Assembly: GCF_024345995.1 (NCBI RefSeq)
Contig: NZ_JAGQCE010000001.1
Coordinates: forward strand, 62,001-126,000
Reading direction: 5' to 3'
DNA from: Synechococcus sp. Cruz-7E5
Lineage (GTDB): Bacteria; Cyanobacteriota; Cyanobacteriia; PCC-6307; Cyanobiaceae
Length of the DNA stretch: 64,000 nt
Positions 38,870 to 48,397 of the stretch are shown in pieces. A program made the position numbers and the translations under genes. The notes under the pieces are model-generated. The model saw nothing but the letters and a program-made list of their open reading frames with translations, had not been told where the DNA came from and searched no databases. Within the stretch, counting starts at the first letter, position 1. Each line of letters begins with the position of its first letter.

Positions 38870-40033
38870 TTAGGCAAATCCCCGGCCCGGGTCCTTGGCC
38901 ACGCAGGCCTGAAGCTGGCGGCGCAGGCGCTGGTGATCCAGATTCTTACCGATCAGGACCAGCTGGTTCTTGCGCTCACCATTCCAGTCAGAGTCGTCAA
39001 TCGAGAAGCGTTTGCCAGCCAGGTGGAACACATGACGTCGCTCGCTTTCGTTGAACCAGAGGATGCCCTTGGCCCTGAACACCTCCGTGGGGAGCTGATT
39101 GTCCAGGAAGTTCTGGAATTTGCGCAGAGCGAAGGGTCCGTCGCTGGAAAATGAGAGCGAGGTGAACCCCTCGATGGCGAGATGGTCTGCCGGATGCTCG
39201 GAGGAACCCTCTTGATGCTCATGGCCATGATCGTGGCCATGAGCATGGCCGTCATCGTGGTTGCAATGACCATGATCGTGGTCACAGTCGCCGTGGTCGA
39301 GATGATCGCCTACCTGGGCTCCAGCGACTGCAGATACGGTCGCGTCGCTACTGGCCACCGCCCGGTCGGACTCGAACAGGCCCACGCTCAGCAGTAATGG
39401 CAGGGCCACGTCTCCCTTGACTGAGCGCAGGATGCGGGCATCTGGTTTGAGGTTGCGCAGCAGAGCTTCCAGCTGCTGCAGTTTCGTCTCCGGCACCAGA
39501 TCACACTTATTGAGCATCAGTATGTCGCCGTAGATAACCTGGGCACGGCCCACTTCGCTTTCAAAACTGCTCGCTTCGAAATTCTCGGCATCGATCAGGG
39601 TGATGATCGAATCGAGGCGGGTGCTGTCACGCAGCTCGCTGCCCAGGAAGGTCATCGCCACCGGTAGAGGGTCGGCCAGGCCGGTGGTTTCCACCACAAG
39701 ATAATCAACGGGCTCGGGGCGCTCGAGAATCCGCTCCACTGCCTCCAGCAGCTCTCCGTTGATCGAGCAGCAAATGCAGCCGTTGCTGAGCTCCACCATG
39801 TCTTCACCGGTGGCGATGATCAGGTCGTTGTCGATGCCGATCTCACCGAACTCATTGACCAGAACGGCGGTCTTGAGGCCGCTCTGGTTGCTGAGGATGT
39901 GGTTGAGCAGGGTGGTTTTGCCGGCCCCGAGGAAGCCCGTCAGGATCGTCACCGGCAGACTGGTGGGGCTCTGATCCTCCACCACCCCCTTGGTGGGAGA
40001 GGACGCGGGACGAGCAGGGGCAGTGCGGGCCAT
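38870..40033 (-). CDS. COG0523 (CobW/ZNG1-type) GTP-dependent metal chaperone
   Basis: A 387-residue G3E-family GTPase. The P-loop TGFLGAGKTTLLNHIL is followed by the metal site NGCICCSINGE, the VETTGLADP motif and LNKCDLVPE. A His/Asp-rich linker (from about residue 237, with repeated HGHDHGHEH) precedes the C-terminal CobW domain (FHLAGKRFSIDD). Proteins of this type insert zinc or cobalt into client enzymes. The location beside porin, znuA, znuC and zur argues for zinc. The ATG at 40033 is preferred to a TTG 9 bases upstream. Confidence 0.92.
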   Translation of the reverse strand: MARTAPARPASSPTKGVVEDQSPTSLPVTILTGFLGAGKTTLLNHILSNQSGLKTAVLVNEFGEIGIDNDLIIATGEDMVELSNGCICCSINGELLEAVERILERPEPVDYLVVETTGLADPLPVAMTFLGSELRDSTRLDSIITLIDAENFEASSFESEVGRAQVIYGDILMLNKCDLVPETKLQQLEALLRNLKPDARILRSVKGDVALPLLLSVGLFESDRAVASSDATVSAVAGAQVGDHLDHGDCDHDHGHCNHDDGHAHGHDHGHEHQEGSSEHPADHLAIEGFTSLSFSSDGPFALRKFQNFLDNQLPTEVFRAKGILWFNESERRHVFHLAGKRFSIDDSDWNGERKNQLVLIGKNLDHQRLRRQLQACVAKDPGRGFA

Positions 40034-40365
40034 CACGGGCAAGCGGGGGCGACATTCGCCTGATCCGGGCAGTCTGGCGCCAAGGCCGTCGATGGGGCAG
40101 GGAATCCAAGGGGCAAAGCACGAGCGTGCCGCGTAACTGGCAAGTCAATAGAGCGAGTTTGGCGCTCCAGTTCCCGGCCAGGCCAGCGGGCACCAGGCTT
40201 GGAGTCTTGTCTCCACCGCACTTGCCTCATCGCTGTTACGGAGGCCGGTGTCGGCTCGGTTGCGAAAACCAGAGCCCTGCCTGGCGAACCAAGGCAGCTG
40301 TCCCAGCCGGTGACAGCACCATCAGCAAGCAGCATTGCCCGCTGGGCCAGGACCAACGGTTGGGC
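40034..40365. other. Intergenic region between COG0523 gene and porin
   Basis: About 330 bp between two minus-strand genes. It should carry the promoter of the COG0523 gene. No Zur-like inverted repeat, tRNA or credible ORF was seen. Confidence 0.4.
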
Positions 40366-41949
40366 TCAGAACGAGAAGCTGGTCTTGACCAACCCGCCCA
40401 ATTGGCTGAATGAGCTGTCGCTGGGGGTGTCCTGGCCGAGGGGACGGCTCAGATAGAACAACGCCGGGGTGATCGAGATGTTGTCGGTGACCTGAAGCTT
40501 GTACCACCATTCCCAGACGAAATTGCCGTCATCGGGGCTGTCGCCTCCGGTCAGAGCCGTGGCAAACACCGGCTGACCCACCGCCATGCCCAACGTATTG
40601 CCCTTGAGCAGCACATCGGCCCACTCCAGACCCACCATCCACGACTGGCTGGCGCTCAGTGCCCCGCTTCCGGGATCTGAGCCATAGGAGGTGGTGCCAT
40701 ATCCCCAGCCGGCACTGATCGAGGGGATCCAGCCCGATGTTTCAGGCTGCCAGTAGCCGCTGAGTCCGAAGGCATTTGTGCGGCTGGAGGAAGGAGCTTC
40801 GAATCCAGCTGTGGCGAACGGTGTGGCCCCTGGGATGGCCACGCCGTTCTGGATGTAGTTGTAGATGGCCGCCACAGCCCATCGATCGCCGGCGTAGGCC
40901 AGCTGAGCGGTGCCGGTGCTCTGACTGTTGCCGTTGCCGAGTCCACCACGGCTGGAATCACCCAGGAAGCCGGTGGCGGCCACATAAGCGGCGCTGATAC
41001 TCCAGCCGTTGCTTTGCCACCACAGGCCTGCGCCGGGTCCGGCGTTCTTGCTGTAGTTGACCGGACTTCCGTTGAGGAAAAAGAGATTCAGAATCGGTTC
41101 AGTGACATAGGCACTCGGCCAGATCGCCAGCATGTCCTCCTGCCCGAGCCTGCCGCCGATTGTGGCGGTGAAATTAGTGCTGATCGGGAACTGGTAATAG
41201 AGTTTGTCGATCCCGAGGGAGTCGGGGCCCGATGCTTCCTCGAAGGCAATCTCCAGGGTGGAGAGGTTGCCGGTTGGCCCCGCGCCACCGAAGGCACTGG
41301 TGCCGAAATTGCCGGCCCGGAGTACCGTCCGCAGAAGATCTTTGCCGGTGAAGCTGGTATCGAGCACCAGCTGCAGGTCGTAGCTGAAGGTGGTGGCGCC
41401 AACTTCCCGGCTGGCCTCATCCCGCAGATCGGTGGCACTGCCGCTGAAGGCATTGGCACCCAGCACGAACGTGGCATACCCCGAAAGCTTGGTGGTGGTG
41501 GAGAACTGGTTGGCCTCCAGCTCACCGACCTTGGCCTCGAGGTTGTCGACGCGGCCGCGCAGGATGGCGAGCTCCTTCTCGAACTCCTTGAGCAGACGGC
41601 GCAGCTCATCGGTCACCTCGTTGATCCGATCGAGGCAGGCGTTGAGCAGAGCGGCTGCTTCCCAGCGGCTCAGCGGCTTCTTGCCGCGGAAGGTGCCATC
41701 GGGGTAACCGGCGACGCAGCCGTAGCGCTCGATCAGGTTGGAGAGTGCCTGGTAGGCCCATTCGGTGGGCTGCACGTCGGAGAACTGGGTGATGCTGGTG
41801 ACCTGGTCCAGGCTGTTCTGACCTGGGCCGGCGGCGTACTGGTTGATGCCGTCCAGGTTCATGGCGATTGCGGAGGCACCGAACGGGGCCACTGGCGCCA
41901 GCACGGCAATGGCCGCAGGGGCGATCCGGCGAAGCAGGGAGGGCATCAT
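40366..41949 (-). CDS. Cyanobacterial outer-membrane porin (SLH plus OprB-like barrel)
   Basis: A 527-residue porin. After a signal peptide (RRIAPAAIAVLAPVAPFGAS) comes an SLH domain (SDVQPTEWAYQALSNLIERY, then GCVAGYPDGTFRGKKPLSRW), a coiled coil (LRRLLKEFEKELAILRGRVD), and a beta-barrel of about 350 residues ending in Phe (VKTSFSF), the usual barrel signature. Such SomA/SomB-like proteins mediate passage of inorganic ions. A candidate Zur site lies about 70 bp upstream, so a role in zinc entry is plausible. The start is one of two adjacent Mets at 41949/41946. Confidence 0.92.
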   Translation of the reverse strand: MMPSLLRRIAPAAIAVLAPVAPFGASAIAMNLDGINQYAAGPGQNSLDQVTSITQFSDVQPTEWAYQALSNLIERYGCVAGYPDGTFRGKKPLSRWEAAALLNACLDRINEVTDELRRLLKEFEKELAILRGRVDNLEAKVGELEANQFSTTTKLSGYATFVLGANAFSGSATDLRDEASREVGATTFSYDLQLVLDTSFTGKDLLRTVLRAGNFGTSAFGGAGPTGNLSTLEIAFEEASGPDSLGIDKLYYQFPISTNFTATIGGRLGQEDMLAIWPSAYVTEPILNLFFLNGSPVNYSKNAGPGAGLWWQSNGWSISAAYVAATGFLGDSSRGGLGNGNSQSTGTAQLAYAGDRWAVAAIYNYIQNGVAIPGATPFATAGFEAPSSSRTNAFGLSGYWQPETSGWIPSISAGWGYGTTSYGSDPGSGALSASQSWMVGLEWADVLLKGNTLGMAVGQPVFATALTGGDSPDDGNFVWEWWYKLQVTDNISITPALFYLSRPLGQDTPSDSSFSQLGGLVKTSFSF

Positions 41950-42017
41950 CGACTTGAAAGCTCTGAAGAAAGAACTGGAAGAAATGGCCTGACAGACAAG
42001 CCCCATCTCCAATTAAT

Positions 42018-42040
42018 CTGAGAATGATAATGGCTCTCAG
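42018..42040. promoter_or_regulatory. Candidate Zur box upstream of porin
   Basis: An inverted repeat CTGAGA (42018-42023) and TCTCAG (42035-42040) flanks AATGATAAT, giving a 23-bp AT-centred palindrome similar to cyanobacterial Zur boxes built around TGATAATNATTATCA. It lies between the porin start and the end of znuA. Confidence 0.55.
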
Positions 42041-42118: not shown

Positions 42119-43195
42119 TCAGCTGATCCGCGACCAGGCCCACACCAGGGCCTCGCCGCCCTTGCGGTCACAGGTGCCGCCCCAGCCCTCCACGATCGTG
42201 CAGGTGTTGCGCACCAGGGTGGCCATCAGGCTGAGGGGGCCATCAGGCCCTATCGCCAGACCATCGGCGGCCAGGGGCACTGAGGCGATCGGCACGCCGC
42301 TGAGCTCGCTGATGCGCTGGAGAGTCTTGGCAGGAGGGCTCTGCTCCGCGAACAAGCGAGGGGTGGAGCCGGCCTGGAGAACGCTGATCACCTGGCGGAA
42401 TCCCTCCGGCCGCAGGGCATCGCTGGTGCTGGTGGCATCCACCAGGGGCAGCTCCTTCAAGCCGTAGGCCTGAGCCAGGCTGGCAAAGGCGCGGTGGCTG
42501 CTGGCCAGAGCGGGCCAGGGCCTGGGGATTGCATCGAACTGCGCCCGGTTCCAGGCATCGAGGCTTTCGAGCTGCACGGCCATGGCCTTTGAACGCCGCT
42601 GCATGGCCTCGGAGGCGGTGGGATCGAGGCGGCCGAGCTGGTCGGCGATCACTGCAGCCATGGCCGCCGCCTGGCGTGGGTTGTGCCACACATGGGGGTC
42701 GTAGTCACCGTGGTCGTGACCAGCGCCATGGTGGTCTTCAGCGCTGTGGTCGTGGTGGTCTGTGGATTCGCCGCCGCTGACTGGCGTGAGCCTGAGGGGC
42801 TGGGGGACGGCCTGCTCGGAAACCGCCACCGCCCCCGGTAGAGCTGAGAGGGCTGGGGTGAGGTCGAAGCCGCTGATCAACAGCAAATCTGCGTCGGTGA
42901 TCTGGGCCTTCTGGTCGGGTCTGAGCCGGAAGTCGTGAGGATCATCGGTCGATTGCAGCAGACAGCTCACGGCCAGTTCGCCACCGGCCAGCCGCTGGGT
43001 GAGATCGCAGAGCACCCCATCGGCGGCCACCACCCGGGGCTGACCTGTGGGCGGGGTCTTGCTGGCTGAGGTTGAGGTGTCCGGGCCCCGGCTGCAGGCC
43101 AGCAGGGAGAGTCCAAGGCCGGCGAAGACCAGCAAAAACGCCGGGTTGAGCGGGTGGCGCTGATCGGCGAGCCGGGAACCAGGGAACGGGGCCAA
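42119..43195 (-). CDS. znuA: Zinc ABC transporter substrate-binding lipoprotein ZnuA
   Basis: A 358-residue cluster A-I binding protein. The lipobox LSLLAC near residue 34 predicts a lipid-anchored periplasmic protein. The metal histidines are expected in DPHDFRLRP, DPHVWHNPRQ and SSHRAFASLA, and a His-rich loop (HHDHSAEDHHGAGHDHG, near residue 147) is typical of zinc rather than manganese proteins. Divergent from znuC with a 137-bp shared control region that carries a candidate Zur site. Confidence 0.94.
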   Translation of the reverse strand: MAPFPGSRLADQRHPLNPAFLLVFAGLGLSLLACSRGPDTSTSASKTPPTGQPRVVAADGVLCDLTQRLAGGELAVSCLLQSTDDPHDFRLRPDQKAQITDADLLLISGFDLTPALSALPGAVAVSEQAVPQPLRLTPVSGGESTDHHDHSAEDHHGAGHDHGDYDPHVWHNPRQAAAMAAVIADQLGRLDPTASEAMQRRSKAMAVQLESLDAWNRAQFDAIPRPWPALASSHRAFASLAQAYGLKELPLVDATSTSDALRPEGFRQVISVLQAGSTPRLFAEQSPPAKTLQRISELSGVPIASVPLAADGLAIGPDGPLSLMATLVRNTCTIVEGWGGTCDRKGGEALVWAWSRIS

Positions 43196-43219
43196 GACTC
43201 ACCGATGCCAATATTCGAC

Positions 43220-43234
43220 GATAACAGTTCTCAT
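43220..43234. promoter_or_regulatory. Candidate Zur box in znuA-znuC intergenic region
   Basis: GATAACAGTTCTCAT (plus strand) shares the TTCTCA half-site with the porin site and pairs imperfectly with GATAAC. It is placed to control both znuA (25 bp upstream of its start) and znuC. Confidence 0.5.
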
Positions 43235-43332: not shown

Positions 43333-44028
43333 ATGGCCCTCGAAGTCCGCCATCTCAGCGTGCGCCGCGGCGAAGGGCTGGCCCTGGAGGACATCAGCTT
43401 TCGCCTTGAGCCCGGCACTCTCACGGCTCTGGTGGGACCCAACGGCGCGGGCAAGAGCACCCTGCTTCAAGCGATCGAGGGCCAGATCCCCCTGCTCTCC
43501 GGTGAACTGCTGCTTGACGGCGCACCGCTCACCCCCCGACTGGCTCGGCGCCAGCTGGCCCTGATGCCCCAGCGTGGTGAGATTGCCTGGCAGTTCCCGA
43601 TCAGCGTGCGTGAGCTGGTGGGTCTTGGCCGGCTGGTGGCCGCCCGACCCGGCTGCTGTGCCGTGGAGGCGGCCCTGCAGCGTGTAGGCATCGATGGCCT
43701 GGCCTCACGCCGCCTTGATCAGCTCTCCGGCGGTCAGCAGCAACGCGCCCTGCTGGCCCGCCTGCTCGTGCAGCCCGCCTCGGTGTTGCTGCTGGACGAA
43801 CCCTGCGCCGCAATAGATCCTCCCTCGCGCACCCAGCTGCTGCAGGTGATGGGCCAGTTGCGGGATGCCGGCTTCATCCTGCTGGTGAGCAGTCACGACT
43901 GGGGCCACGATCTCGACGCCTACGACCGCGTGCTGGTGATCGACCGCCGGCTTCTGGCCGATGGACCCCCGGCCTCGGTGCGCCATTCCCTTGGCGATTT
44001 GCGCCTGGGAAACCATCGCTGCGGCTGA
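43333..44028 (+). CDS. znuC: Zinc ABC transporter ATP-binding protein ZnuC
   Basis: A 231-residue ABC ATPase: Walker A GPNGAGKSTLL near residue 38, Q-loop in LMPQRGEIAW, signature LSGGQQQRALLARLL, Walker B VLLLDEPCAAID and switch His in SSHDWGHDLD. It energises zinc uptake with ZnuA and ZnuB. The start at 43333 (MALEVRHLSVRRGEG) fits the family; an upstream ATG at 43240 would place the Zur site directly before it. It converges on zur. Confidence 0.93.
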   Translation: MALEVRHLSVRRGEGLALEDISFRLEPGTLTALVGPNGAGKSTLLQAIEGQIPLLSGELLLDGAPLTPRLARRQLALMPQRGEIAWQFPISVRELVGLGRLVAARPGCCAVEAALQRVGIDGLASRRLDQLSGGQQQRALLARLLVQPASVLLLDEPCAAIDPPSRTQLLQVMGQLRDAGFILLVSSHDWGHDLDAYDRVLVIDRRLLADGPPASVRHSLGDLRLGNHRCG

Positions 44029-44040
44029 ATGGGAGCTTAT

Positions 44041-44454
44041 TCAGTTGTCCTCAGGGGCGGATTGGCGACAACGGGAGCAGCGGCCGAAATACTCCAGGGT
44101 GTGGAACAGCAGCTCAAAGCCATGGGCTGCCTCGGGTTGCGGCTGGATGCCATGCATCGGACAGTGATCGAGCGGCAGCGTCAGGCCGCAGGAAACGCAG
44201 GTGAGGTGGTGGGTGTCCCGCTCCCTGGGGGCATAGAGGGCCTCACCGCTGGGGAGGTGGCGACAGCGGGCCAGGCCCAGGCGCTGAAGCTGGCGCAGGT
44301 GCCGATAGACCGTGGCGAGCCCGATCGGCTGTCCGTTGAGGCGCAGGCGCTGATGCAGGTCCTGGCCGGAGAGCTCTTCGGAGCTCTCTCGCAACATCGC
44401 CAGCACGCTTACCTGCTTGGCGTTCAGCTGCTGAGCGGCTGCCTCGGATTCCAT
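44041..44454 (-). CDS. zur: Zinc uptake regulator Zur (Fur family)
   Basis: A 137-residue Fur-family repressor: a winged helix with IGLATVYRHLRQLQRLGLAR, the metal-binding HHLTCVSCGLTLPLDHCP, and a C-terminal CSRC, giving the two CxxC motifs of the structural zinc site. It sits between znuC and znuB, which identifies it as Zur rather than Fur. It is expected to repress znuA, znuC and the porin when zinc is plentiful. Divergent from znuB. Confidence 0.92.
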   Translation of the reverse strand: MESEAAAQQLNAKQVSVLAMLRESSEELSGQDLHQRLRLNGQPIGLATVYRHLRQLQRLGLARCRHLPSGEALYAPRERDTHHLTCVSCGLTLPLDHCPMHGIQPQPEAAHGFELLFHTLEYFGRCSRCRQSAPEDN

Positions 44455-44486
44455 CGGTGTCTGCTCGGGCCCCTGGTCGGGATCCT

Positions 44487-45320
44487 ATGCAGACCGGTTC
44501 ATTCGCTTCGCCCCGCAGCCGCCCGATGAGCCCGACCTGGTGGATGCTTCCCCTGACCCTGGCCCTGCTCAGCGGCCTGCTCTGCCCCCTGGCGGGCACG
44601 CTGCTGCTCGTGCAGGGGCGCCTGTTCCAGGCCAATCTGATCTCCCATGCGGTGCTGCCTGGCCTGGCGGTGGCCATGGCGCTGGGCATCGACCCAGGGC
44701 TGGGTGGTGTGGTGAGCGGGGTGGCCGGCGCCCTGCTGGCGGAGCGGTTCAGCCGGCCCGGCAGCTCCGGTGGACGCGGCGATGAGGCGGTGCTGAACAC
44801 CGTGCTGGCCGGATTCCTGGGTCTGGGGGTCCTGTTGATCCCCTTGCTGCGGATCCGGGTGAACCTGGAAGCCGTGCTCTTCGGAGATCTGCTCGCGGCC
44901 GGACTGCCGGATCTGCTGCGCACCGGCCTGTCACTGCTGGCGGTGCTGTCATTGCTCAGCTTCCGCTACCGCCAGCTGGTGTTTCTCGGCGTGGACCCCC
45001 TGGGCGCAGCCAGTGCCGGGCTGGCGGTGGGGCGCCTGCGCCTGCTGCTCACCCTTGTGACTGCCCTGACAGTGGTCAGCGCCATGACGGCCGTGGGGGT
45101 GGTGCTGGTGATCGCCCTGATGGGGGCTCCGGCACTGCTGGCCCTGCAGGGGGCGATCAGCCTGCGCCAGGCCCTGCTGCGGGCGGCGTTGATCGGCGCG
45201 CTGCTGGCTGGCGGCGGCTTTCTGCTGTCGATCCAGCCCGCCATCAACCTGCCTCCTGGGCCCCTGATCGGAGTGCTGAGCCTGCTGCTGCTTCCCCTGG
45301 TCCTGAGACTGCGGCGCTGA
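44487..45320 (+). CDS. znuB: Zinc ABC transporter permease ZnuB
   Basis: A roughly 277-residue polytopic permease of the cluster 9 metal ABC family with about eight hydrophobic helices. NLISHAVLPGLAVAMALG and the later MTAVGVVLVIALMGAPALLA are family blocks. Start choices are 44487 or 44526 (MSPTWWMLPLTLALL). Unusually, znuB is separated from znuC by zur, with zur in reverse orientation. Confidence 0.92.
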   Translation: MQTGSFASPRSRPMSPTWWMLPLTLALLSGLLCPLAGTLLLVQGRLFQANLISHAVLPGLAVAMALGIDPGLGGVVSGVAGALLAERFSRPGSSGGRGDEAVLNTVLAGFLGLGVLLIPLLRIRVNLEAVLFGDLLAAGLPDLLRTGLSLLAVLSLLSFRYRQLVFLGVDPLGAASAGLAVGRLRLLLTLVTALTVVSAMTAVGVVLVIALMGAPALLALQGAISLRQALLRAALIGALLAGGGFLLSIQPAINLPPGPLIGVLSLLLLPLVLRLRR

Positions 45321-45336: not shown

Positions 45337-46719
45337 TCAACCTGGAGGCAGCCAGCTCACCTGACGCACCGGACCCTTGAGCATGGTCAGCTCAAGGCTG
45401 GTGGCATCGATCAGGGCAGCCTGGGGTTCAGCTCGGGAGCTGCCCGGCGCAGGTCCTGGGAGTTGCAGGGGGCGCAGGGCCAGCAACAGCCGATCGGTGG
45501 TGGGGTCGTAGCTCAGCCCCGTGCCCGGCTCCAGTTCCCAGCCCACCAGACTCTGCCGTCGTTCGCCCCCATCGCGGCTGAGGGCCAGCACGGTGAGCAC
45601 GGGCTGCTCGATTCCATCCAGCAGCAGGGCCCAGACCCGATCTCCACCCCTTGAGCAGGCGCTGGCGAGCAGTGCTTCCTGGCCCAGCCAAAGGGTTTTC
45701 GGGGCCTGGGCCGGCTCCACCAGCTCCAGGGAGCGGCGGAAGTCGGGCCAGTGGCGGGTGAGCAGAGCCCGGCCCGCCACCGGGCAGAAGCTGCTGAGAT
45801 CGCGGCTGCCGGGCAGGAGCTGGCGGCGGGCCGGTCGCGGCGGCAGGGTTCTCAGAGCCAGGCCATCGGCCTCGGGCACGATCATGGCTCCTCCCTGGGG
45901 CACCAGGGCGATCGGTCCACGGGGGTCCAGCTCCAGACTCCGGCGGCTACCGCCGCGCTCCCACAGCACCACCTCCTCCTGAGGGGGCTCAGGCCCCAGG
46001 GCCTGGGCTGCTGCCTGAACCAGCAGATCGCCACTGGCATTGCTGCTCAGGTTGGCAAATACATAAGTGTGGGTACTGAATGGCTGCAACCGCCCCGCCC
46101 GGGCTGAGCCAAGGTCGCTGGAGCGCCTGGCCAGGTGGTTTCGCTTCAGCTCGAGTCTCCAGACCTGGTGTTCCCCCTGCTGGTCCCGGCTGACCAGGCC
46201 AAGACCCGAACCATCTCCCAGGGCCACGGTCTGAGTGATTGCCGGCCACACGGGCGTCAGCGGTGTCCAGGCCCCAGCGGCTGTGCGCAGACGGACCTGC
46301 TCGCCCCCATCCACCGGGACCACGGCCAGAAGGTCGGGGCGGGGATCCCAGAACCAGCGCTGGACGGGAAGGGACAACCCTCGCTGGTCGAGGCCAGCCA
46401 GCCGAAGCTCAAGAGGTTGTTCGATGCGAGCCCCAACAGCCGGCAACAGCAGCAGGGGGTTGCCCTCCCCCTGGATCGTGAAGGGAAGCGGCGGTTGCAG
46501 CTGGCTGCTTTTGGTGAAGCTGGAAGCCCGCATCGGCCGGCTGAAGCGCAGGCTCAGAGCCGCCGGCCCGGAGCTGGCGCTTGCCTGGCGCAGTTCCAGA
46601 AGGCGCGGCGGACGATGCCAGAGAAACTGCTGCTGCAGCAGCGCCACGGCGGCGGCGGCGATCAGCAGCAACCTCAGGCGCTTCTGCCGACGCCACCAGC
46701 TCAGGGGCGTCGGCTTCAT
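45337..46719 (-). CDS. Membrane-anchored propeller-like protein, unknown function
   Basis: A 460-residue protein with one N-terminal helix (LRLLLIAAAAVALLQQQFLW), an Ig-like region with SLRFSRPM, and a long beta-rich C-terminal part with repeated WxxD/VxxDG-type strands resembling a WD40 or TolB propeller. No catalytic motif was recognised. It overlaps the TIGR03943 gene by 4 bp and is thus the third gene of an operon with a permease. It may act outside the cytoplasm with those two proteins, which is inference. Confidence 0.78.
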   Translation of the reverse strand: MKPTPLSWWRRQKRLRLLLIAAAAVALLQQQFLWHRPPRLLELRQASASSGPAALSLRFSRPMRASSFTKSSQLQPPLPFTIQGEGNPLLLLPAVGARIEQPLELRLAGLDQRGLSLPVQRWFWDPRPDLLAVVPVDGGEQVRLRTAAGAWTPLTPVWPAITQTVALGDGSGLGLVSRDQQGEHQVWRLELKRNHLARRSSDLGSARAGRLQPFSTHTYVFANLSSNASGDLLVQAAAQALGPEPPQEEVVLWERGGSRRSLELDPRGPIALVPQGGAMIVPEADGLALRTLPPRPARRQLLPGSRDLSSFCPVAGRALLTRHWPDFRRSLELVEPAQAPKTLWLGQEALLASACSRGGDRVWALLLDGIEQPVLTVLALSRDGGERRQSLVGWELEPGTGLSYDPTTDRLLLALRPLQLPGPAPGSSRAEPQAALIDATSLELTMLKGPVRQVSWLPPG

Positions 46720-47429
46720 GGCTCAAGCGGCTGGCGGGGCCGGGGGATCGGCACCACACGGCTGGCCTTGACCGCACTGCGCTGCCGGCCGCCGATGGTT
46801 TCGCTCACCATCACCCCCTCCAGCCGCAGCCACTCGTCAGGGCGGGGTCGGGGCTGATCGGGGGGCCAGCGCACCGGCAGCCCAACAGGCACGGCATCCA
46901 CCAGGCAGCAGCGCACCAGCAGGCGCGCCAGGTGGGGCTCCTCACCTTCGATGGGAAGGACGAAACCGCTGATGCGTACGGGATCACCTGCGTAGAGACG
47001 CGGATCCGGCTCGCTGCGCAGCAGGCGCACCCAGTCGGTGAGGCTGCGTTGGGCCGGAGGGAGCACAAAGCTGAGGCCCGGTTCCTCCAGCAGGTTGGCC
47101 TGGCGATTGGCGGCCAGATCGGCAAAGGAGGGACGGGGGGGCAGGGCCAGCACGGCCAGGGCAGCGCCGATGCTCAGCAGGGAGGTCCAGCGCCCGCTCG
47201 TGCGGCTGGCATCCCGCCAACGGCCGCTCAACTCCACAGCGGCCAGCAGCAGCAGCAGGAGTCCACTGGCCCAGACGAGCGGATGGAACACGGCCCGAAG
47301 GAGCAGATCGAGTCGTCCGCTCAGGTAGCTCTGCAGCAGCGCGACGCCCCACAGGCCCAGGGCCAGAGCCTTCAGGGGGCCCGGGGCCAGGCGCCGGAGC
47401 GTCAGGGAACGCTGGGGCCTGGATCTCAA
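46716..47429 (-). CDS. TIGR03943-family (DUF1980) membrane protein
   Basis: A 237-residue protein with two N-terminal hydrophobic segments (LKALALGLWGVALLQSYLSG and LVWASGLLLLLLAAVEL) and a soluble C-terminal OB-like domain. Within it, IRISGFV-type and LARLLVRCCLVDA blocks are typical of DUF1980. The TTG start at 47429 overlaps the permease stop as TTGA. Members are almost always paired with a UPF0718 permease, as here. The pair probably forms one transporter of unknown substrate. Confidence 0.82.
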   Translation of the reverse strand: MRSRPQRSLTLRRLAPGPLKALALGLWGVALLQSYLSGRLDLLLRAVFHPLVWASGLLLLLLAAVELSGRWRDASRTSGRWTSLLSIGAALAVLALPPRPSFADLAANRQANLLEEPGLSFVLPPAQRSLTDWVRLLRSEPDPRLYAGDPVRISGFVLPIEGEEPHLARLLVRCCLVDAVPVGLPVRWPPDQPRPRPDEWLRLEGVMVSETIGGRQRSAVKASRVVPIPRPRQPLEP

Positions 47430-48397
47430 AGCAGGATCAGGTTGACCCATTGGCCGATCAGCAACACCACAAGGGACGCCGCCCCCGCTGTGAGCAGGAT
47501 GGCGCGGGGCCGCAACAGGATGCTGAACAGCCCAACCAGCTTGAGATCCATCACCGGCCCCAGCAGCAGGAAGGCCAGCACAGCACCCGGGGTGACCTGG
47601 GCGGCAAATCCCAGGGCAAGAAAGGCATCCACGCTGGAGCACACCGACACCACCAGGCTGAGCAGCATCAGGCTCAGAATCGAAAGAGTGGGAGCACCGC
47701 CCACCGCGATCAGCCACTGGCGAGGCACCAGGGTCTGAACCAGGGCGGCGATGGCACAACCCATCACCAACAGCAGGGCCAGCTCCAGAAACTCGGCGCC
47801 GCCGTGGGAGAGCACCTGGCCGAGGGGGGGGCGACGGCTCGATCCCGCCACAACTGACGTGGCGCCGCCGGCCGGAGCACCGATCAGGCCACTGCGGCGC
47901 TCCAGCAGGGTCACCTCTGCCAAGGGTTGGCTCAGACGCCGTTCCTCCAGCAGAGCCGGCTGCAACAGCTGGCTGTCGGGAAGGAGCCGCAACAGTGTGG
48001 CCAGAGCCACGGCGATCAGCACGGCCCCCAGGGGCCGTGCTGCCAGCAGCCAGGGCTGATCAGGAAAGGCGGCCCAGGTGCTGGCCAGGACGATCGGATT
48101 GAGCACAGGAGCCGCGAACAGAAACCCGAGGGCGGTGGCGATCGGCGCCCCTTTCACCAGCAGATGACGGGCCATGGGCACGTTGCCGCACTCACAGGCG
48201 GGCAGGGCGAAGCCCAGTGCCGCCCCGCTCAGGGGGCCCAGCAGCGGGTGGGCAGGCAGGGCCCGCACCCACTTCCCCCCGGGGCTGATCCAGCGGGCCA
48301 GGCTGGAGAGAGCCACCCCGATCAGCAGAAAGGGCATCGCCTCCACCAGTAACGCCTGAAACAGAGCCCAGGTGGTGGCCAGCCGCTCCACACCCAT
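47426..48397 (-). CDS. UPF0718/YraQ-type permease (DUF318)
   Basis: A roughly 323-residue polytopic membrane protein with two halves of about four helices. The family motif ALPACECGNVPMARHLL in the first half carries a Cys-x-Cys pair, and VVSVCSSVDAFLALGF mirrors it in the second. A Ser/Gly/Arg-rich loop (residues about 165-210) separates the halves. The frame is open upstream to 48472, but that extension is derived from a queD fragment, so the start is placed at 48397 (MGVERLATTW). Substrate unknown. Confidence 0.87.
   Translation of the reverse strand: MGVERLATTWALFQALLVEAMPFLLIGVALSSLARWISPGGKWVRALPAHPLLGPLSGAALGFALPACECGNVPMARHLLVKGAPIATALGFLFAAPVLNPIVLASTWAAFPDQPWLLAARPLGAVLIAVALATLLRLLPDSQLLQPALLEERRLSQPLAEVTLLERRSGLIGAPAGGATSVVAGSSRRPPLGQVLSHGGAEFLELALLLVMGCAIAALVQTLVPRQWLIAVGGAPTLSILSLMLLSLVVSVCSSVDAFLALGFAAQVTPGAVLAFLLLGPVMDLKLVGLFSILLRPRAILLTAGAASLVVLLIGQWVNLILL

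Follow-up and report, generated by a model that had tools for sequence, protein, structure and literature searches.

A co-inherited ArsP_1 permease, TIGR03943 protein and predicted propeller-like protein encoded beside the zinc genes of Synechococcus sp. Cruz-7E5

Here we describe three minus-strand genes in a 64,000-nucleotide stretch of the Synechococcus sp. Cruz-7E5 genome (assembly GCF_024345995.1, contig NZ_JAGQCE010000001.1, positions 62,001 to 126,000). This whole stretch is hereafter the window, and its numbering is used unless another locus is named. The genes occupy 48397..45337 and encode, in this order, an ArsP_1 permease, a TIGR03943 protein and a third protein, here called P3. 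We found that P3 accompanies the TIGR03943 protein across the cyanobacterial phylum, and that permease, TIGR03943 protein and P3 very probably constitute a three-gene functional module. Our preferred reading, to which we assign a probability of roughly 0.45, is that they form a three-subunit inner-membrane transport module with a putative role in metal, probably zinc, homeostasis.

P3 is inherited together with the permease and TIGR03943 protein

We searched for the three proteins in 201 genomes of the family to which the strain belongs (Cyanobiaceae) and in 386 genomes of the phylum. Within the family, P3 was detected in 109 genomes, and the TIGR03943 protein and the permease in 108 each; 107 genomes have the full trio and 91 have none of the three. 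The three discordant genomes are all fragmentary or incomplete. One, where a contig end truncates P3 and Zur comes next, probably carries the trio at a contig break (G192), another yields a single weak 67-residue match (G068), and the last is 73% complete and has the pair only (G188).

Across the phylum, a profile built from 43 family P3 sequences (A1) found P3 in 139 of the 386 genomes, all 139 of which also have a TIGR03943 match. TIGR03943 itself was matched in 158 genomes, 157 of them over the cut-off. Profile A1 missed P3 in 19 TIGR03943-bearing genomes, and a second profile (A3), whose 36 P3 sequences include 30 non-family ones, recovered it in 18 of these 19 and raised the number of P3 genomes to 159. 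The P3 and TIGR03943 sets have 157 genomes in common. Left over are one genome with a TIGR03943 match below the cut-off and no P3 (G320), and two with weak P3 matches that are listed only as belonging to the same phylum (G228 and G242); no genome has an above-cut-off TIGR03943 protein without P3, and these two weak matches are the only P3 without TIGR03943. The first-pass annotation had placed a third protein beside the pair and named co-occurrence analysis as a check on it; the result speaks for the third protein belonging with the pair.

The genes need not be neighbours to be kept. In the 104 non-family P3 genomes for which both places are listed (out of 108), P3 lies less than 1 kb from the TIGR03943 gene in 71 and 1-5 kb away in 8; in 14 it shares the contig at a greater distance, and in 11 the two are on separate contigs. 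Within the family, P3 of genus g9 is on a different contig from the pair, with all three kept. We fetched 40 stretches from outside the family, choosing both linked and unlinked cases. In the first non-family set, chosen as linked, P3 comes after the TIGR03943 gene in the same orientation and no more than about 2.2 kb away in 20/20, and so it does in L157 and L158, two stretches in which A1 had missed P3.

Losses of the trio also occur as a block. Comparison with congeners placed the gap exactly at the junction of znuB with the next gene in one genome (G009; L162 versus L046) and exactly at that of zur with the next gene in another (G005; L161 versus L166), with both neighbours kept in each case. 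A further genome lacks the trio, but its gene order differs (G081). These three, whose congeners keep the trio, and a streamlined group are the loss cases that could be identified. Many trio-less genomes are small-genome members of the family, which we infer to be Prochlorococcus-like, and most trio-less genomes of the phylum are not listed individually. Co-occurrence and gene order are both widely conserved, to an extent beyond chance. Collectively, the trio behaves as one evolutionary unit; block loss alone shows only linkage of the genes.

Gene layout of the trio

The P3 and TIGR03943 genes overlap by 4 bp (ATGA). A 4-bp overlap had been claimed for the other junction as well, which would require the TIGR03943 gene to start at TTG 47429; as ATG 47450 is in frame and agrees with the MGQ start of the orthologues L031-L036, the overlap with the permease gene is probably 25 bp rather than 4 bp. 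Overlaps of this kind likely point to translational coupling, and not to the stoichiometric complex that the first-pass annotation had read from them. Its statement that the operon directly follows znuB has likewise to be corrected: znuB ends at 45320 on the plus strand and P3 at 45337 on the minus strand, so that the two genes converge with 16 bp between them and znuB is not upstream of the operon. No sigma-70-like promoter was found. Judged by P3, close relatives of this picocyanobacterium are Synechococcus sp. 1G10 and J7-Johnson (93-94%) and WH 5701 (84%).

Table. Coordinates of the trio, its motifs and predicted domains, and the neighbouring zinc genes in the window
Feature	Position	Strand	Evidence
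Permease gene (ArsP_1 / UPF0718, ScfA/YcgR-type)	47426..48397	-	323 aa, ATG at 48397; PF03773; orthologue starts MGVERL/MGMERL
Cys-Glu-Cys-Gly-Asn motif of permease, residues 68-72	48182..48196	-	66/66 aligned homologues
TIGR03943 gene (ScfB/YcgQ-type, DUF1980)	46716..47450	-	ATG 47450 preferred, TTG 47429 possible; NCBIfam model, orthologue starts
CCxxD motif of TIGR03943 protein (C174, C175, D178; numbered from TTG 47429)	46896..46910	-	73/73 aligned homologues
P3 gene, predicted membrane-anchored Ig-like and beta-propeller protein	45337..46719	-	460 aa
P3 predicted N-terminal membrane helix, residues 5-35	46615..46707	-	Model pLDDT about 70; hydropathy, Arg/Lys-rich N-terminus
P3 predicted Big_5-like Ig domain, residues about 40-124	46348..46602	-	PF13205 in relatives; model
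P3 predicted TolB/PD40-type beta-propeller region, residues about 125-460	45340..46347	-	Profile A3 against PDB; PD40 in relatives
znuB	44457..45320	+	PF00950 1.9e-38
zur (Fur family)	44041..44454	-	Best PDB match 7NE9 (WH8102 SynZur), 1.4e-46
znuC	43333..44028	+	ABC_tran PF00005 3.2e-30; named by place beside znuA and znuB
znuA	42119..43195	-	PF01297 2.2e-44
Zur-box-like palindrome between znuA and znuC	43219..43233		15-base pattern and weight matrix
Second Zur-box-like palindrome, upstream of porin gene	42025..42039		15-base pattern and weight matrix

The permease and TIGR03943 protein resemble a pair known from Firmicutes

The first gene had been annotated as a UPF0718 permease with a Cys-x-Cys motif, which is borne out by a match to PF03773 (ArsP_1) at 3e-54 and 184.6 bits against a gathering score of 32.3. 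Both C68-E-C-G-N and C253-S-x-x-D are kept in all 66 aligned permease sequences. ArsP proteins mediate efflux of trivalent organoarsenicals. The closest NCBIfam model, NF033936 (SO_0444 family Cu/Zn efflux transporter), scored 71.1 bits, far under its cut-off of 300, and we therefore rejected that assignment. The second protein matches NCBIfam TIGR03943 at 1.7e-45 and 155.1 bits, over the cut-off of 88.8, confirming its annotation as a TIGR03943 protein; the control genomes of B. subtilis and S. elongatus give TIGR03943 matches as well. An AlphaFold model of low confidence (pLDDT 54.7) predicts three long helices (residues 16-36, 50-72 and 78-94) and, at the C-terminus, a domain of five strands. 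Placing the basic N-terminus inside would put this domain, which bears the CCxxD motif, outside.

Adjacent permease and TIGR03943 genes are the arrangement of the ScfAB/YcgRQ-type pair. Its described members, ScfA/ScfB in group A Streptococcus, SMU.746/SMU.747 in S. mutans and YcgR/YcgQ in B. subtilis, combine an eight-transmembrane permease with a partner encoded side by side, and their function is given as unknown in the available text (PMC5584981). ScfB is taken for a TIGR03943 protein on account of its stated homology to YcgQ, and two transmembrane helices are stated for ScfB (PMC5584981), as opposed to the three predicted in the window protein. The cyanobacterial module differs in adding P3: the accessible part of that paper describes no third gene for these pairs, and in the openly licensed literature, as far as its available text extends, we found no description of a third component and no paper on TIGR03943 by name. 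The module is thus a probable variant of the ScfAB/YcgRQ pair with P3 as a new probable subunit. Another relative is the ArsP_1 permease operon BAS1632 of B. anthracis, which ties an ArsP_1 permease to a Zur regulon and which, according to the available text, has two Zur boxes bound by Zur in vitro (PMC6336718); the window operon differs from it in having none.

P3 is predicted to be a membrane-anchored Ig-like and propeller protein

At E<=1 neither Pfam nor NCBIfam gives a match for the window P3, and profile A1 found no propeller in the PDB, so that the protein could not be filed under a known family by these routes; TolB emerged from A3 only. Profile A3 matched TolB (7mx5) at 8.2e-05 and S9-type propellers at 0.018-0.075. 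Among its 36 members, Pfam at E<=0.1 recognized Big_5 in 25, PD40 in 10 and DPPIV_N in 5. The best Big_5 (PF13205) match among them reached 5.9e-07, the window P3 itself having none, and the P3 of locus L156 scored 29.1 bits against the PF13205 cut-off of 23.6. Aligned P3 sequences share a hydrophobic helix at the N-terminus. They also have in common an FSRPM...SVE segment, conserved and read by us as Big_5-like, and repeated LSPDG-like segments, which we read as propeller blades.

Structure prediction (AlphaFold, low confidence, pLDDT 54.6) gave a helix at residues 5-35 followed almost exclusively by beta strands, in agreement with the first-pass annotation of a membrane-anchored, beta-rich protein. 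The model supports the helix and the Ig-like part, block pLDDT being mostly 69-86 for these two and mostly 70-86 at residues 50-120; a propeller was not supported by it. The weakness of this model and that of the TIGR03943 protein is due to only 8 rows having been eligible. Foldseek searches with the P3 model, suggestive only in view of that weakness, returned mostly propellers at TM below 0.25, and when P3 was compared with itself in search of blade repeats, the off-diagonals were weak (best E 1e-04). Collectively, the phylum-wide profile suggests that P3 consists of a single membrane helix, an Ig-like domain of the Big_5 kind and a beta-propeller of the TolB/PD40 type. From the TolB and S9-peptidase propellers that its profile resembles, P3 differs in its N-terminal membrane helix, its Big_5 domain, the company of the permease pair, and the lack of any peptidase domain detectable with Pfam.

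A second P3-like paralogue occurs in G282, G307 and G420, where it is in tandem, and in several f6 genomes. A short stretch of a Mageeibacillus metagenome-assembled genome (L038 8001-8144) is 51% identical to P3 residues 23-75 over 53 residues, where chance or contamination is possible.

The trio recurs beside zinc genes within the family

In the window the trio adjoins a zinc island of znuA, znuC, zur and znuB (Table), which further holds a porin gene (NF033921) and a CobW/COG0523 GTPase gene at 40042..38870. We surveyed 29 family loci from 20 genera for such linkage, leaving out genus g9, where P3 is split from the pair. In 19 of the 20 genera, P3 has a gene for Zur, ZnuA, ZnuB, ZnuC, COG0523 or a His-rich protein no more than 7 kb away; g52 has none. 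The arrangements vary. P3 converges with znuB in g1, g10 and g45, and with a His-rich gene and znuA in g5, g30 and g3. It is followed in same-strand tandem by zur at 26-81 bp in g6, g24, g31, g33 and g44, and by znuC at 75-79 bp in two of the three g35 loci, the third (L052) having no zinc gene in range. In g19 and g59, zur lies upstream of the permease gene in the opposite orientation. Clustering of neighbouring genes recovered znu, COG0523, porin and His-rich families at the family loci; outside the family it yielded no recognized recurring neighbour.

Zur boxes and the WH8102 regulon

The two palindromes in the Table are the only matches to the 15-base Zur-box pattern at one mismatch in the 64 kb, where 0.61 would be expected; at least two matches arose in 15 of 100 shuffles. 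Both also top the scan with a weight matrix, whose training boxes include 43219-43233. This matrix was built from 11 znuA-side boxes and applied at a threshold of 10 or more. Boxes were found at 17/20 znuC promoters, a positive control that is not independent, as it shares boxes with the training set, at 3/23 zur promoters and at 3/66 permease promoters (L051, L077 and L157), the shuffled rate being 2.4%. We therefore rejected the trio as a cyanobacterial Zur-regulon member by promoter, the frequency at its operons being near the shuffled rate and the window operon having no box. Judged by promoter sequence, the trio is not a standard Zur-repressed uptake unit. L051, from one genus, departs from nearly all other permease promoters in that a strong Zur-box-like word (20.2 bits) precedes its permease start by 23 bp.

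Zur has been studied in strain WH8102, where the protein, SynZur, is that of PDB entry 7NE9 (PMC9337993). According to the available text of that study, synw0968-0973 are up in a zur mutant, synw0970-0973 are zinc- and Zur-dependent, and 0973 is termed uncharacterised with its regulation unclear (PMC9337993). SYNW0973 is probably P3, as the gene order in G112, whose Zur is 98% identical to SynZur, is znuC, znuA, a His/Asp-rich gene and P3, with no gene between. The stop codons of the 0972-like gene and P3 abut there (8913/8914 of L074), and read-through from the znuA transcript into P3 could therefore yield the 0973 signal, a live alternative to true regulation of 0973. The libraries were strand-specific, with the counting mode unstated in the available text (PMC9337993).

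Weighing the proposed function

We propose that the products of the three genes work as a single transport module in the cyanobacterial inner membrane. In it, the ArsP_1 permease, with its CxC and CSSxD motifs, would form the membrane path. The TIGR03943 protein would be its partner, with the C-terminal CCxxD beta domain probably periplasmic. P3 would be the third subunit, held by a one-helix anchor with its Ig-like domain and TolB-type propeller in the periplasm (or thylakoid lumen), where it may dock on or order the extracytoplasmic face. The cargo would be a thiophilic metal or metal-ligand complex, and the most likely setting zinc homeostasis. The invariant Cys motifs of the permease and TIGR03943 protein, the co-occurrence, the retention of P3 when unlinked, the block loss, the zinc layouts in 19/20 genera, the predicted domains of P3 and the binding of Zur at the B. 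anthracis ArsP_1 operon (PMC6336718) argue for this.

Several points weigh against it. The interaction among the three proteins and their substrate are both putative. By weight matrix, the window operon has no Zur box at its promoter, and an ordinary Zur-repressed uptake function is thereby disfavoured. In the 40 non-family stretches only L137 has a Zur gene, beside P3, and none of the 40 gives a ZnuA or ZnuC match, in a search made with family-built profiles on 13-16 kb, which remote or divergent znu genes could escape. The metal link that the first-pass annotation had drawn from location thus stands within the family, across several layouts, and nearly vanishes outside it. Of 20 genomes in which no full trio was detected, 18 keep a close Zur homologue (E<=4.4e-36); G192, which probably has the trio, is one of them. 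The trio is therefore dispensable for zinc regulation. The alignment has no invariant Cys or His in P3 phylum-wide, which makes a structural or docking role more likely for P3 than that of a metal carrier. Many co-occurrence cases share ancestry, and the losses that can be counted as independent are only a handful. The phenotypes given for Firmicute homologues in the available text are acid stress, biofilm and in-vivo fitness, with no metal one among them (PMC5584981).

Some of these points would equally suit a transporter of general envelope or stress function whose substrate is not a metal, the zinc-gene neighbourhood then being a clade-specific layout without shared function. We hold this to be quite possible, if not what we favour, since the trio lies apart from zinc genes outside the family, its operon has no Zur box, and the available text on the relatives reports phenotypes in acid stress and biofilm for S. 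mutans, control by ECF sigma for B. subtilis, and an amino-acid permease function proposed without demonstration (PMC5584981). However, several arrangements over 19/20 genera are hard to put down to inertia, and the Cys motifs are invariant. P3 could also be a mere passenger, co-transcribed with the pair and acting elsewhere in the envelope; second P3-like matches in some f6 and f14 genomes and the functional diversity of propeller proteins would fit, but such a role is improbable given that an above-cut-off TIGR03943 protein never occurs without P3, that P3 alone amounts to two weak matches, and that P3 is kept when unlinked.

The expression of synw0968-0973 suggests a zinc-scarcity uptake or delivery system of the Zur regulon, a view consistent with the rise of synw0973, the P3 orthologue by gene order, in the zur mutant and at low zinc (PMC9337993), with the P3-znuC tandem in two g35 loci and with the L051 box. 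We consider it improbable for the trio: boxes at 3/66 promoters are near the shuffled rate, synw0974 and synw0975 are not named in the available main text (PMC9337993), and the abutting stops leave read-through as a possible source of the 0973 signal. Within the preferred reading of a three-subunit module, we lean towards handling or export over scarcity-induced uptake, because the Zur box is missing and, in the available text, no zinc efflux pump orthologue is known in WH8102 (PMC9337993). A narrower proposal, that the three proteins are the subunits of a metal exporter (or periplasmic-loading machine) specific to cyanobacteria, we consider rather unlikely.

The ArsP_1/TIGR03943 pair occurs in Firmicutes and cyanobacteria and affects Gram-positive fitness, with no known substrate. 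Co-inheritance of P3 gives a handle on it, in the form of a partner with a soluble domain and of genetically tractable strains. In picocyanobacteria, whose zinc efflux has yet to be explained, the trio keeps recurring near zinc genes, which suggests zinc as the first thing to look at, and the published Zur target synw0973 merits a re-check.

Other features of the zinc neighbourhood

Downstream of the palindrome at 42025-42039, the COG0523 GTPase gene, whose product has a His-rich loop, and the porin gene (window 38870-42039) are probably further Zur targets. In several family genera (L042, L043, L045, L046 and L162), genes of the 6-pyruvoyl tetrahydropterin synthase family and of hisIE type are repeatedly found next to the trio locus. 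In marine-type strains the His/Asp-rich protein, SYNW0972 by order, is encoded co-directionally with znuA (L048 11128-12273, minus strand; L074 7771-8913, plus strand); it has a weak Zip similarity (0.0005), probably from its His-rich run.

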